Shown: positions 59,420 to 63,429 of the stretch, in pieces
How the letters are laid out: the number at the start of each line of letters is the position of its first letter
Position numbering within the stretch: the stretch's first letter is position 1
Source of the DNA: an uncultured Eubacteriales bacterium
GTDB taxonomy: Bacteria > Bacillota > Clostridia > Peptostreptococcales > Anaerovoracaceae
Length of the DNA stretch: 64,000 nucleotides
Reading direction: 5' to 3'
Assembly (NCBI GenBank): GCA_902786815.1
Contig: CADADV010000005.1
Span: 160,857-224,856, forward strand
Program-made: the position numbers and the translations under genes
Notes under the pieces: generated by a model
Databases searched by the model: none
What the model was told of the DNA's origin: nothing
Seen by the model: the letters and a program-made list of their open reading frames with translations, nothing else

Positions 59420-59809
59420 TTATTTTCTCTTCATCTCTTTCGGTGTCACGCAAGTTCCGGAAGCTCTTGCAACGATGATCGGCTCTTCCAGGAAGTCAGC
59501 AGCGGAATCGTTGATGTCTTTTCTGGAAACGATGACCTTTCTTGCTTCGAAAGTCATGTGTCTTGAAGTGTTGCCGATCTTGTCGATCTCGCCGTAAGCT
59601 TCGATGTAGTCGCCGGCATAAGTCGGAGCCAGGAACTCTACATTATCATAAGCGCAGAACAGACCTTCGTCTCCGTCCAGCTTGATCAGCAGCTCGGTAG
59701 CAACGTCACCAAAGAGGTGTACCATGTGTGCGCCGTCAACCAGTTCTCCGCCGTAGTGAGCATCCTTTGCAGACATTCTGAGTCTCAGTGTTGAAGTAAT
59801 TTTTTCCAT
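59420..59809 (-). CDS. kal: 3-Aminobutyryl-CoA ammonia lyase
   Basis: 129 aa from ATG 59809; AAAGGAGA lies 6 bases upstream, so the in-frame ATG at 59827 is not the start. The hot-dog fold segments ([39 protein letters not shown]) match Kal, which removes ammonia from 3-aminobutyryl-CoA to give crotonyl-CoA in clostridial lysine fermentation. The small size is right for the family. It has its own sigma-54 promoter, divergent from the regulator gene. Confidence 0.88.
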
Positions 59810-59874
59810 CTTGAATCTCCTTTTCATATTATTGATAAAAAAGTGTGTACTGTTTTTGCACTGCGATTATATAT

Positions 59875-59891
59875 TGCAAAACCAATGCCAA
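59875..59891 (-). promoter_or_regulatory. Sigma-54 promoter of kal
   Basis: Minus strand TTGGCA-TTGGTTTT-GCA: the -24 GG and -12 GC dinucleotides are exactly 12 bases apart, matching the TGGCAC-N5-TTGCA consensus closely. Start predicted near 59864, about 55 bases before the gene. Confidence 0.8.
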
Positions 59892-59918
59892 GCGTTTATC
59901 ATATGAATCAGAGGAAAA

Positions 59919-59936
59919 CGAACCGATTTCGGTTCG
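59919..59936. promoter_or_regulatory. Activator palindrome CGAACCGA/TCGGTTCG
   Basis: Perfect 8-bp arms with a TT spacer. It lies about 64 bases upstream of the predicted kal start and 15 bases before the regulator's start codon. The same palindrome with AA spacer recurs at 62057. Confidence 0.8.
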
Positions 59937-59950
59937 GGAGGAAAAGGAAA

Positions 59951-62017
59951 ATGAACACATTTGGAATTGACAGGTCCCTGACGCCGCGCCGTACGTTTAC
60001 GCCGCTGGCATGGGAACTGGATAACAGCAGCCAGCTGAAAAGCGGCGAAGTCAGGATCGCTTTGGGAAAGGTTCATGTGGAAGGGACCAGTTTCCGGCAG
60101 ATCTGCCAGGAGGCGGGCAACGACGAGGAACAGATCAAAGAGAAGATCAAGGACATCGTTATCCGCAGGGGCAAACTACACAACCCGGTCACTGACACGG
60201 GCGGGCTCTTCTGCGGAGTCATAGAGGAAATCGACGGTGATTATCCGAACACCAAAGGCTTGAAGCCCGGGGATGAAGTCATCTGCAACTCTTCGCTGGC
60301 CGGCATTCCCATGTACATCGATAAGATTACAAGCATCGACAAGGTCTACCCGCAGTTCGACGCGGAAGGGTACGCCATCTCGCTGCCCGGCATGCCTATC
60401 GTCAAACGGCCTAAGGATATCCCCATAGGCCTTCTTATGTTTACGCTCAACGAATCGGGAACGATCTACAAAGTTTCGAAGGAAGCAAAGAACAAGAAAC
60501 GGTTCGCGGTTCTTGCAAACAATGTGATCATGGCGACCATTTACGGGTATACGATCCGGAAAGCGGCGGGGGAAGACGCAGAGATCTTTTGCCTGCTGGA
60601 CAGGAATACGCCGGTGGCGATGAAAGGTCCCGGTATAGAGAGGCTCAAGGCGGAGGTTTTCACAGACCTTTTCTATGTTAACATGATGCGGCCGGCCGAG
60701 TGCCTGAAACAGTTTGACGGAAAACAGCAGGTGGATATGGTCGTGAACTGCGCTGACGTTCCGGGAGCTGAGACCATCAGCGTCGTGGCGGCGAAATCCG
60801 GCGGGACGCTGATTTTTGCCAACTTCAACAGCAATTACAACATCGCGCTGTATGTCACTGAGGCGACATCCAAAGATCTGCAGATCAAATGCGCCGACGG
60901 TTATCTGGAACAGTACGATGAATTCGACTTCGAGATCGTCAGGGAGCTGGCGCCGTATATTGAGGGCAGTCTAGTGCCGCGGGAAAAGACTGTCCGGGGC
61001 GGACAGCGGTCGGAAGTCGACCGGGAGATCCTGCAGCAGTACACCCAGCATAATCTGGAGGAAGCGGAGGACTTCGTGTCCGTCAGCTCCCGCATGCAGT
61101 CGGTGCTCGATGAGATCATGAGCGTATCCAAGTACGACTGCAATGTTCTCATCACCGGTGAAACAGGCGTCGGCAAAGAAAAAGTCGCGAATATCATACA
61201 GAAAAACAGCCGTCGCAAGATGCAGCCCTTCGTCAAGATCAACTGCGCGTCCATCTCCCCGAACCTCATCGAATCCGAGTTCTTCGGGTATGAGAAGGGC
61301 GCCTTCACAGGCGCGGACAGCAAAGGCAAGATCGGCTATTTCGAAGCGGCGGACAACGGCATCATATTCCTGGACGAAGTGGGGGAACTGCCTATGGATA
61401 TGCAGGCGAAACTGCTGCGTGTCATACAGGACGGTGAGTTTCTCAAGGTCGGCGGAACAAGGCCGGTGAAAACGGACGTCAGGATCATTTCCGCGACAAA
61501 TAAGGACCTTGAGGACCTTGTGGAGAAGCGGGTGTTCCGGCGGGATCTATACTACAGACTCAATGTTTTCCCGATCAAAGTTCCCGCACTTGACGAACGG
61601 ACGGAAGACATCCCGCATCTGGCTGAGAGCTTTGTGCGGAAATACAATGAGAAGTTCGGTTTGAGCAAGTACATTGACGAGGATGCCAAGGAGAGACTGG
61701 CGTCCCACAAATGGCCGGGGAATATCAGGGAACTGGAAAACGTCGTGCAGAGGCTGCTGATCGGCAGCAGCGGCGACGCAATCACGGTCATGGACGTGGT
61801 CAAGGAGTTGGACAGAGACCTGATCAAGGGAATCGATGCGGCGTCACCTGACGCAGACGACGAAGGAAACATCGATCTGACAAGCATGGTGGAAGCTTTT
61901 GAGAAAAACATCATCCGTCAGGCCTGCGAGAAATACGGGTCCACCCGCAAGGCCGCAAAAGCAATCGGAATTTCCCAGACCCAGTTCGTCAGAAAAAAGA
62001 ATAAATACGGGCTGTAA
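59951..62017 (+). CDS. Sigma-54 activator with Kdd-like sensor domain
   Basis: 688 aa from ATG 59951 (AGGAAAA site). Residues 1 to about 345 align along their length with Kdd (62368): both share KDIV-x3-GK-x2-NP and the GG-I-G-x-I-EEI pattern, but the dinucleotide loop GGGGKSG of Kdd is replaced by VLANNVIM, so NAD binding is probably lost. The AAA+ domain follows (about 375-610): Walker A GETGVGKE (about 401), GAFTGA (about 450) that contacts sigma-54, and Walker B IIFLDEVGEL. A Fis-type HTH ends the protein (KAAKAIGISQTQFVRKKNK). It probably senses a lysine-pathway metabolite and drives kal and kdd-kamA. Confidence 0.92.
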   Translation: MNTFGIDRSLTPRRTFTPLAWELDNSSQLKSGEVRIALGKVHVEGTSFRQICQEAGNDEEQIKEKIKDIVIRRGKLHNPVTDTGGLFCGVIEEIDGDYPNTKGLKPGDEVICNSSLAGIPMYIDKITSIDKVYPQFDAEGYAISLPGMPIVKRPKDIPIGLLMFTLNESGTIYKVSKEAKNKKRFAVLANNVIMATIYGYTIRKAAGEDAEIFCLLDRNTPVAMKGPGIERLKAEVFTDLFYVNMMRPAECLKQFDGKQQVDMVVNCADVPGAETISVVAAKSGGTLIFANFNSNYNIALYVTEATSKDLQIKCADGYLEQYDEFDFEIVRELAPYIEGSLVPREKTVRGGQRSEVDREILQQYTQHNLEEAEDFVSVSSRMQSVLDEIMSVSKYDCNVLITGETGVGKEKVANIIQKNSRRKMQPFVKINCASISPNLIESEFFGYEKGAFTGADSKGKIGYFEAADNGIIFLDEVGELPMDMQAKLLRVIQDGEFLKVGGTRPVKTDVRIISATNKDLEDLVEKRVFRRDLYYRLNVFPIKVPALDERTEDIPHLAESFVRKYNEKFGLSKYIDEDAKERLASHKWPGNIRELENVVQRLLIGSSGDAITVMDVVKELDRDLIKGIDAASPDADDEGNIDLTSMVEAFEKNIIRQACEKYGSTRKAAKAIGISQTQFVRKKNKYGL

Positions 62018-62056
62018 GACGTCTGGCCAAATAACACGATAACGCCTTAACACAAT

Positions 62057-62076
62057 GCGAACCGAAATCGGTTCGC
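62057..62076. promoter_or_regulatory. Activator palindrome GCGAACCGA/TCGGTTCGC, also terminator-like
   Basis: Perfect 9-bp arms with AA centre, the same core as at 59919. It stands about 218 bases before the predicted kdd start, a usual distance for a sigma-54 enhancer site. It is followed by GTTTTTT and so could also end the regulator transcript. Confidence 0.8.
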
Positions 62077-62090
62077 GTTTTTTGTGTTTA

Positions 62091-62106
62091 GAACACGTTT
62101 CGGTTC
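62091..62106. promoter_or_regulatory. Second, degenerate activator site
   Basis: GAAC-8-GTTC with the same spacing as the perfect sites and a TCGGTTC right half. Its centre is 32 bases (three turns) from the first site, suited to cooperative binding. Confidence 0.6.
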
Positions 62107-62257
62107 AATAATTGACAAAAAATTGACAAAAACAGGACGTGATCGGGAAGCATAACCGGCCGGAAGGAGCGGCAGATACCCAAATAATGGCGAAATCCCA
62201 AGCGGGAAGGGGCTGAAACAGTGTTGACAGGGTATTGAGAGGCCTGAAATCAACCGG

Positions 62258-62274
62258 TTGGCACGCATATTGCT
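62258..62274 (+). promoter_or_regulatory. Sigma-54 promoter of kdd-kamA
   Basis: TTGGCACGCATATTGCT matches the -24/-12 consensus (TGGCACG-N4-TTGCW) at every conserved base, with the GG and GC 12 bases apart. Start predicted near 62286. Confidence 0.93.
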
Positions 62275-62299
62275 AAATAATTAACATAACGTTAAAGTT

Positions 62300-62333
62300 G
62301 CCTTTGCATCAAAGGCGGGCCTTGAGCAAAGGC
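62300..62333 (+). promoter_or_regulatory. Leader hairpins before kdd
   Basis: GCCTTTG (62300-62306) pairs with CAAAGGC (62310-62316); alternatively GCCTT (62319-62323) pairs with AAGGC (62329-62333), and the last CAAAGGC can also pair with the first arm. Probably a stability or attenuation structure. Confidence 0.45.
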
Positions 62334-62367
62334 TGAAATACAAATAATATTTTTTAGGAGGAACATC

Positions 62368-63429
62368 ATGAAAAAAGGTAATCCGTACGGAACACACAGA
62401 GTTATTTCACCGAAGGGCGTTCTGCCGCAGCCAGCAGACGTTGTCGACAACACAATGGAAATCTATGACAACGAGATCCTGATCGACGTTAAGACACTGA
62501 ACATCGACTCCGCTTCCTTCACAGAGATCTGCAAGCAGGTCCTGGGCAAGAAGCCGGCTGAGATCGAAACGCAGGAAGATAAGGACAAGGTTGCACAGTG
62601 CATGAAGGACATCGTTGCTAAGGCCGGAAAGCACAAGAACCCTTGGACTGGTTCAGGCGGAATGCTGATCGGAACCGTTAAGGAAATCGGACCGGAGTGG
62701 AAGGGCGACCTGAAGGTTGGCGACAAGATCGCTACACTGGTATCCCTGTCACTGACACCGCTGGTGATCGAAGAGATCCACGAGATGAGACCGGCAATCG
62801 ACCAGGTCGACATCACCGGACAGGCGATCCTGTTCCAGAGCGGCATCTATGCTAAGCTGCCTGATGATATGCCGGAAGGTCTCGCACTTTCAGCACTGGA
62901 CGTTGCTGGCGCTCCTGCACAGACAGGCAAGCTGGTTCAGCAGGGACAGAAAGTCCTCGTAATCGGCGGTGGCGGCAAGTCAGGTCTGCTGTGCCTCTAC
63001 GAAGCAAAGAAGAGAGCCGGCGTAACAGGTCTGGTTGTATGCGCGGCTGGTTCACAGAAATCAGAAGACAGAGCAAGAGCTCTCGACCTGGCAGACGAAT
63101 ACTTCCACATGGACGCATCTGATGCAGTAGGAATGTATGAGAAGGCTATGGAACTGACCGGCGGCGAACTGTATGACGTAGTCATCAACTGCGTATCCAT
63201 CGAGAACACTGAGATGGGCTCCATCCTGAGCTGCAAGGACGACGGAACAGTTTACTTCTTCTCCATGGCTACAAGCTTCACAAAGGCTGCCCTGGGTGCA
63301 GAAGGCGTTGGCAAGGACGTCAACATGATCGTCGGCAACGGCTACACAAAGGGCCATGCAGAAATCACTCTGCAGGAGCTGAGAGAGCATGAAGGCCTCA
63401 GAAAGCTCTTCGAAGAAATGTATGCGTAA
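62368..63429 (+). CDS. kdd: L-erythro-3,5-diaminohexanoate dehydrogenase
   Basis: 353 aa, AGGAGGA before the ATG. A dinucleotide-binding loop VIGGGGKSGLL (about residue 200), preceded by the GROES-like half (VGDKIATLVSLSLTPL), fits the Kdd family. It oxidises 3,5-diaminohexanoate to 5-amino-3-oxohexanoate with NAD+ in lysine fermentation. It heads the operon under a sigma-54 promoter; kamA follows 31 bases later. Codon use is strongly biased, as in highly expressed genes of this window. Confidence 0.93.
   Translation: MKKGNPYGTHRVISPKGVLPQPADVVDNTMEIYDNEILIDVKTLNIDSASFTEICKQVLGKKPAEIETQEDKDKVAQCMKDIVAKAGKHKNPWTGSGGMLIGTVKEIGPEWKGDLKVGDKIATLVSLSLTPLVIEEIHEMRPAIDQVDITGQAILFQSGIYAKLPDDMPEGLALSALDVAGAPAQTGKLVQQGQKVLVIGGGGKSGLLCLYEAKKRAGVTGLVVCAAGSQKSEDRARALDLADEYFHMDASDAVGMYEKAMELTGGELYDVVINCVSIENTEMGSILSCKDDGTVYFFSMATSFTKAALGAEGVGKDVNMIVGNGYTKGHAEITLQELREHEGLRKLFEEMYA

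Follow-up and report, generated by a model that had tools for sequence, protein, structure and literature searches.

A Kdd-related N-domain as predicted sensor of a sigma-54 activator at a lysine fermentation locus, with relatives that have probably moved away from sigma-54

Analysis was carried out on a 64,000-nucleotide stretch (hereafter the window) from an uncultured Eubacteriales bacterium. Close to its end, a regulator gene of 688 codons is flanked by kal (minus strand) and kdd (plus strand). The ATG at 59951 is immediately preceded by GGGAGG, a ribosome-binding-like sequence. The next gene, kamA, scores under the cut-off of its best model because just 180 aa are present; the window ends where the contig ends, so the operon is interrupted inside kamA. 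Lysine fermentation is a butyrate route of gut bacteria. Features of the locus are collected in Table 1.

Table 1. Genes, protein domains and predicted control elements of the locus (window positions)
Feature	Position	Strand	Evidence
Fusion regulator of 688 aa, a sigma-54 activator with Kdd-like domain	59951..62017	+	ORF, Pfam, NCBIfam
N-terminal Kdd-homologous sensor domain, residues 1-345	59951..60985	+	BLASTP, NCBIfam, profile, AlphaFold model, fold match
Site of the former dinucleotide loop (GGGGKSG in Kdd, ANNVIMA here)	60515..60535	+	alignment
AAA+ sigma-54 interaction domain, residues 378-542	61082..61576	+	Pfam
GAFTGA motif	61298..61315	+	sequence
Helix-turn-helix HTH_50, residues 641-688	61871..62014	+	Pfam
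kal, 3-aminobutyryl-CoA ammonia lyase	59420..59827	-	NCBIfam NF052388, 187.1 bits, cut-off 160
kdd, L-erythro-3,5-diaminohexanoate dehydrogenase	62368..63429	+	NCBIfam NF052381, 246.6 bits, cut-off 200; 7dl3 E=6.5e-105
kamA (lysine 2,3-aminomutase), incomplete at contig end	63461..64000	+	best NCBIfam model TIGR03820, E=2.3e-64, below cut-off
-24/-12 promoter of kal, TGGCATTGGTTTTGCA	59875..59890	-	motif match
-24/-12 promoter of kdd, TGGCACGCATATTGCT	62259..62274	+	motif match
Predicted operator palindrome, kal side; centre 51 bp from kal -12, directly 5' of regulator start codon	59920..59935	.	perfect GAACCG-N4-CGGTTC
Predicted distal kdd operator; with T-run (62054-62079) may also terminate the regulator transcript	62059..62074	.	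perfect GAACCG-N4-CGGTTC
Predicted proximal kdd operator; palindrome with 2 mismatches, distal copy 32 bp away	62091..62106	.	motif match

Pfam search of the regulator detected the AAA+ sigma-54 interaction domain (PF00158, E=2.3e-68) and, in the C-terminal half, an AAA lid and HTH_50 (E=1.2e-13), while no Pfam domain scored above cut-off in residues 1-345. These residues align with the Kdd encoded 350 bp downstream (25% identity over 349 columns, BLASTP E=6e-35) and match the NCBIfam KDD model NF052381 with 108.8 bits (E=2.9e-31), below the curated cut-off of 200 bits that Kdd itself passes. A profile built from 18 such N-domains matched in the PDB solely three distinct Kdd chain sequences (best E=4.5e-62). 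An AlphaFold model of the N-domain, computed from 55 sequences of the window and its relatives, had pLDDT 86 and pTM 0.87; in a Foldseek search with this model seven Kdd chains ranked first (E 3.6e-24 to 3.3e-23, TM 0.68-0.83), followed by other alcohol dehydrogenases from E 1.8e-10. The whole two-domain fold of Kdd (PDB 7dl0, 7dl1, 7dl3 and 7dl7) is common to the sensor, which differs from the enzyme in its place on a separate side of the tree (see below), in falling under the family cut-off and in lacking the dinucleotide loop GGGGKSG (62965-62985 in kdd). The PrdR model NF041552 matched the AAA+ and HTH part only, with 333.7 bits, and its cut-off of 795 was not reached. The AAA+ domain, GAFTGA, HTH, nearby -24/-12 promoters and rpoN, found in the window's own genome, are all those of a bacterial enhancer-binding protein (bEBP). 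As judged from its sequence, the 59951 protein is a one-component bEBP with a Kdd-related N-domain whose dinucleotide loop has been lost. An earlier sequence-only reading had described the same succession of Kdd-like region without the nucleotide loop, AAA+ domain, GAFTGA and HTH, had called for a structural comparison and had named failure to align with Kdd in a profile search as one possible refutation. Since sequence, profile and fold comparisons all showed the N-domain to be homologous to Kdd, the reading passed that test.

The same reading took the N-domain for a decayed copy of Kdd, which was wrong as to both origin and state. In an N-domain tree, regulator domains and free Kdds fall on either side of one branch with 100/100 support (the tree is unrooted and similarity-thinned to 37 of 104 Kdds and 37 of 93 fusions), and 56 columns are invariant across 55 regulator N-domain sequences. 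Recent decay of the local kdd as the source of the sensor was ruled out by this split. Given the fully supported branch, the sensor domain belongs, on this phylogeny, to an ancient, conserved family with paralogues, under strong constraint. Among 127 columns invariant (at least 97%) in 35 Kdds, two Kdd paralogues (L036_K8516 and L037_K8392) being excluded from the comparison, 31 are identical in at least 95% of the 78 regulators (best 80 of at least 594 stretches). Concerted change relative to Kdd is seen at many further positions; the ligand may therefore be something other than a Kdd substrate. In the AAA+ tree, also unrooted, the fusions group as one clade (support 93), apart from the PAS-type activators that precede kdd in other Clostridia; three rows labelled as other EBPs within this clade are fusions found again. 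A PAS-type activator of other lysine fermenters was ruled out by this tree as the direct parent of the AAA+ part. A single old fusion would fit the trees, unrooted as they are. The proposal that enzyme duplication gave rise to a sensor thus stands in its Kdd homology and its link to the kal and kdd promoters and falls in the recent decay of the local kdd; it is partly supported, right in outline and wrong in history.

Related N-domains were searched for at increasing taxonomic distance. Matches were found in 48 of 61 close genomes, with fusions and free Kdds counted together, in 161 of 349 genomes of the window's family (E<=1e-60), in 31 of 391 genomes of a class sample, where most were free Kdds and the fusions came from families f1, f31 and f51, and in 82 of 398 genomes of a phylum sample, where long fused frames occurred solely in the window's genome and one other (G601). 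Among the named hosts are Aminicella lysinilytica, Clostridium aminobutyricum, Emergencia timonensis, Eubacterium infirmum, Sinanaerobacter and Hornefia. The locus survey (hereafter the first set) covered the best 80 of at least 594 stretches. The fusion frame was found in 78 of these 80; in L146 it runs off the contig, and L090 and L100 are cut too short. Where there was room for the neighbours, kal lay upstream in 71 of 72 loci (exception L102) and kdd was present in 68 of 69 (exception L158), again among the best 80 of at least 594. A tandem kdd pair, whose copies share 64-70% and 79-87% identity with the Kdd of the window, follows the regulator in L123-L125, L127, L129, L130, L132, L134, L136, L139, L142, L143, L148, L150 and L151. 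In L149 and L163 the entire kamC-kamB-kamA-kdd-kal operon is divergent from the regulator, so that one intergenic region serves all.

Paralogous fusions occur in other surroundings. L035 lies at a cluster of kamA, CoA-transferase, thiolase and class III aminotransferase genes; L039 has CoA-transferase, thiolase, aminotransferase and TRAP transporter genes nearby and is without kamA; L040 is near pyruvate formate-lyase. The GAFTGA-like loops of L039, L041 and L043 are FTGA forms. Kdd-domain activators form tandem pairs at L035:7071-11312 and L038:2258-6423, and the L035 pair precedes its cluster as expected for a variant lysine pathway with a beta-transaminase. A second kind of fusion adjoins a Kdd-like gene (L036:5980-9589, L037:8392-11988, L204 and L206). 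This neighbour is 46-48% identical to Kdd in L036 and L037, and in L036, whose fusion domain has a near-intact dinucleotide loop, a TRAP transporter then follows.

We infer that the N-domain senses a metabolite. It would keep a small-molecule pocket and no longer act as a dehydrogenase, with lysine or an intermediate (beta-lysine, 3,5-diaminohexanoate or 5-amino-3-oxohexanoate) as candidate ligand. Another reading is that it senses the Kdd enzyme itself, docking with Kdd subunits via the dehydrogenase dimer surface and reporting the amount of enzyme or of substrate-loaded enzyme. Dehydrogenases of the Kdd kind form dimers, and both the homology of the two folds and the near-constant kdd neighbourhood agree with docking; however, no free Kdd was detected in the 10-18 kb stretches around the paralogous fusions L035, L039 and L040, and we consider this reading unlikely. 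That the N-domain is a redox sensor still binding NAD(P)H appears very unlikely. The fusions attaching closest to Kdd do retain near-complete loops in a graded series (L060 GANGKVG, L061 GASSKIG, L036 GAWTKLG), and the glutamate which, according to passages of PMC9902596, binds the NADPH amide in Cloacimonas Kdd (E310) is kept as E304 in 78/78 regulators from the best 80 of at least 594 stretches; yet loop residues K204 and G206 are retained in none of the same 78 lysine-locus regulators.

To return to metabolite sensing, the genes that such a regulator would control are marked by two elements. Exact matches to the -24/-12 consensus TGGCAYN5TTGCW occur in the 64 kb only twice (0.14 expected), before kal and before kdd, as had been noticed from the sequence. 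Matching palindromes had been noted before both genes as well: perfect GAACCG-N4-CGGTTC is found in the window at two sites only (0.00 expected), one on each side, while the site at 62091 is a copy with two mismatches, beyond which seven further 2-mismatch matches lie elsewhere in the window. In the first set (best 80 of at least 594 stretches), -24/-12 sites were called when they scored beyond the 99th percentile for shuffles: 55 of 71 loci have one before kdd, 51 of 74 have one before kal, and 0 of 74 have one directed at the regulator gene. The same palindrome ranked first in a de novo count of gapped palindromes over both regions. With up to two mismatches it is present on the kal side in 67 of 74 regions and on the kdd side in 66 of 71 (shuffles 0.5% and 0.4%; best 80 of at least 594), counts made on the loci from which the motif was derived. 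Held-out loci gathered afterwards, 39 after 41 near-copies and 10 loci without a full regulator by pattern (L233, L262, L264, L265, L268, L283, L294, L295, L304 and L307) had been removed from 90, contain it in 27/39 upstream and 33/39 downstream regions.

Spacing between the two elements is fixed on the kal side, where the distance from operator centre to -12 element is 51 bp in 37 and 52 bp in 13 of the 50 GAFTGA-bearing loci with both. On the kdd side the operator often comes in pairs spaced 31-33 bp, and the copy closer to the -12 lies 49-286 bp from it. The operator-to-kdd -12 spacing is phased, with a best period of 11.1 bp (R 0.63, cluster-jitter p 0.002, a rough value as the loci are related).

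GAFTGA is present in 64 and missing in 14 of the 78 orthologues from the best 80 of at least 594 stretches. A sigma-54 promoter was found at 60 of 63 testable GAFTGA-bearing loci of this first set and at 0 of 14 GAFTGA-less loci (Fisher 8e-13); in the 39 distinct held-out loci the figures are 28/29 and 0/10 (Fisher 1.7e-8), both Fisher values ignoring kinship among loci. Both sets were also compared in equal 600-bp windows, covering 115 of 117 loci (the pattern found no full regulator in L108 and L131; L245 has only 195 bp downstream), with a sigma-54 promoter at 88 of 91 GAFTGA-bearing vs 0 of 24 GAFTGA-less loci. L111, L147 and L162, whose earlier regions were shortened by ORF starts, have the promoter in these windows. 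The GAFTGA-bearing L157, L158 and L276 have none within 600 bp; L158 has merely 199 bp upstream, and in L157 the promoter is farther off. GAFTGA changes about six times in the best joint tree. Only two independent pairs rest on starred branches of that tree, too few for the association to become significant in a pair test. Genome-wide rpoN loss as the cause was ruled out: rpoN is kept in 14/14 GAFTGA-less genomes of the first set, and among 49 genomes searched it was missed in three (L126, L139 and L146). Synteny, conserved operators and the co-loss of GAFTGA with sigma-54 promoters support a tie between the regulator and the kal and kdd promoters.

The GAFTGA-less proteins could be dying regulators without function, and worn Walker motifs in several of them are in line with this. 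Their reading frames are nevertheless full-length, the N-domain and HTH remain conserved and at least one operator persists within 600 bp of 22 of the 24 loci. Moreover, a sigma-70-like promoter (at least 10/12 matches) begins 54-55 bp from the operator centre in 11 of 12 GAFTGA-less kdd regions of the first set (shuffle 0.25%), a peak absent from the GAFTGA-bearing loci of that set. The 54-55 bp offset was picked after seeing these data; the fair test is therefore the held-out set, weaker than 11/12, with 4/8 (at least 9/12 matches) or 3/8 (at least 10) GAFTGA-less regions vs 0/28 GAFTGA-bearing. We thus give loss of function little credence. On the co-loss and spacing data, the loss of sigma-54 use in these lineages is well supported and the gain of a positioned sigma-70 promoter moderately so; control in the 24 GAFTGA-less relatives is, by prediction, no longer of the sigma-54 type. 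It is scarcely credible that the palindromes are terminators rather than operators. In favour, 62054-62079 scores terminator-like with a T-run, and of the 10 bases after the distal kdd copy 5 or more are T in 23 of 46 pairs. Against it, this is so for only 4 of 46 proximal copies and for 4 of 72 sites on the kal side (counts from the best 80 of at least 594 stretches); the fixed 51-52 bp spacing, the common 31-33 bp pair spacing and the helical phasing are further counter-evidence. The distal kdd copy may serve as both operator and terminator.

Taken together, it is likely that a Kdd-derived ligand sensor switches lysine fermentation on, and that about six lineages were re-plumbed away from sigma-54. 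Ligand binding would lift repression of the AAA+ ring, and the freed ring would open sigma-54 polymerase at kdd-kamA and kal. The operator directly before the regulator's own start codon would also dampen its own expression. In the roughly six lineages, GAFTGA and both -24/-12 promoters would have been lost together, the same sensor and HTH then using ordinary promoters.

In other Clostridia the place before kdd is taken by PAS-domain EBPs, the known system closest in position, for which PrdR is the nearest NCBIfam model. As here, an AAA+ activator, in their case of about 460 aa, lies directly 5' of kdd-kamA (L045, L046 and L054; partial frames in others). They differ in having a PAS domain (over the Pfam cut-off in L045 and L054, just under it in L046) and no Kdd-like domain, and their AAA+ domains form another clade. 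Reuse of a metabolic enzyme fold as the sensor of a catabolic regulator is described, in passages of PMC6917764 and PMC5320631, for MocR/GabR proteins, in which a GntR HTH is fused to an aminotransferase fold. Those, unlike the window regulator, have a PLP aminotransferase fold and a winged helix, neither found here by Pfam or fold search, and are without AAA+ or sigma-54. TyrR, DhaR, HupR, Rhodobacter and Caulobacter NtrC and VpsR have, according to parts of PMC3162934 and PMC10274813, lost GAFTGA and act at sigma-70 promoters, as predicted for the GAFTGA-less fusions. In contrast to them, fusion orthologues with and without GAFTGA share genes, HTH and operator, and the promoter change is visible alongside. 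No regulator of lysine fermentation and no description of this regulator or domain was found in the open literature at the level of titles, beginnings of abstracts and term counts, a search that leaves most subscription papers outside and does not prove absence. The words 'lysine' and 'kdd' are absent from the main text of a paper on Clostridiales sigma-54 regulons (PMC6615313), and 'regulator' from PMC4697335 and PMC3149608. While bEBPs, enzyme-derived sensors and GAFTGA loss are already known, what appears new is the sensor domain, together with repeated re-plumbing within a single regulon.

A fuller account, to which we would give an even chance, is that sigma-54 activators of a class not described before use the Kdd-related domain to sense a metabolite; that several lineages moved the same sensor, HTH and operator to sigma-70 polymerase, each losing GAFTGA and both -24/-12 promoters and often gaining a promoter at a set distance; and that the branches nearest Kdd are near-enzyme intermediates still binding NAD(P). 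An enzyme-derived sensor offers a concrete guess at the signal and a possible biosensor for lysine-pathway intermediates. Repeated loss of sigma-54 control within a single regulon that retains its sensor and operator would be a natural experiment on a transcription factor changing its polymerase partner.

The perfect operator occurs three times in the whole 2.2 Mb genome: on the kal side, on the kdd side and at a third site (L217:5700-5830; contig C10:61700-61829 of the window's own genome). Of the 11 exact -24/-12 matches in the genome, one lies about 105-120 bp downstream of this third site. It is possible that the third operator is an extra target outside lysine metabolism. The promoter there reads into a gene for a 187-aa ECF-like sigma factor (Pfam Sigma70_r2 and r4_2) and then into one for a repeat protein of 1425 aa whose start is signal-like.
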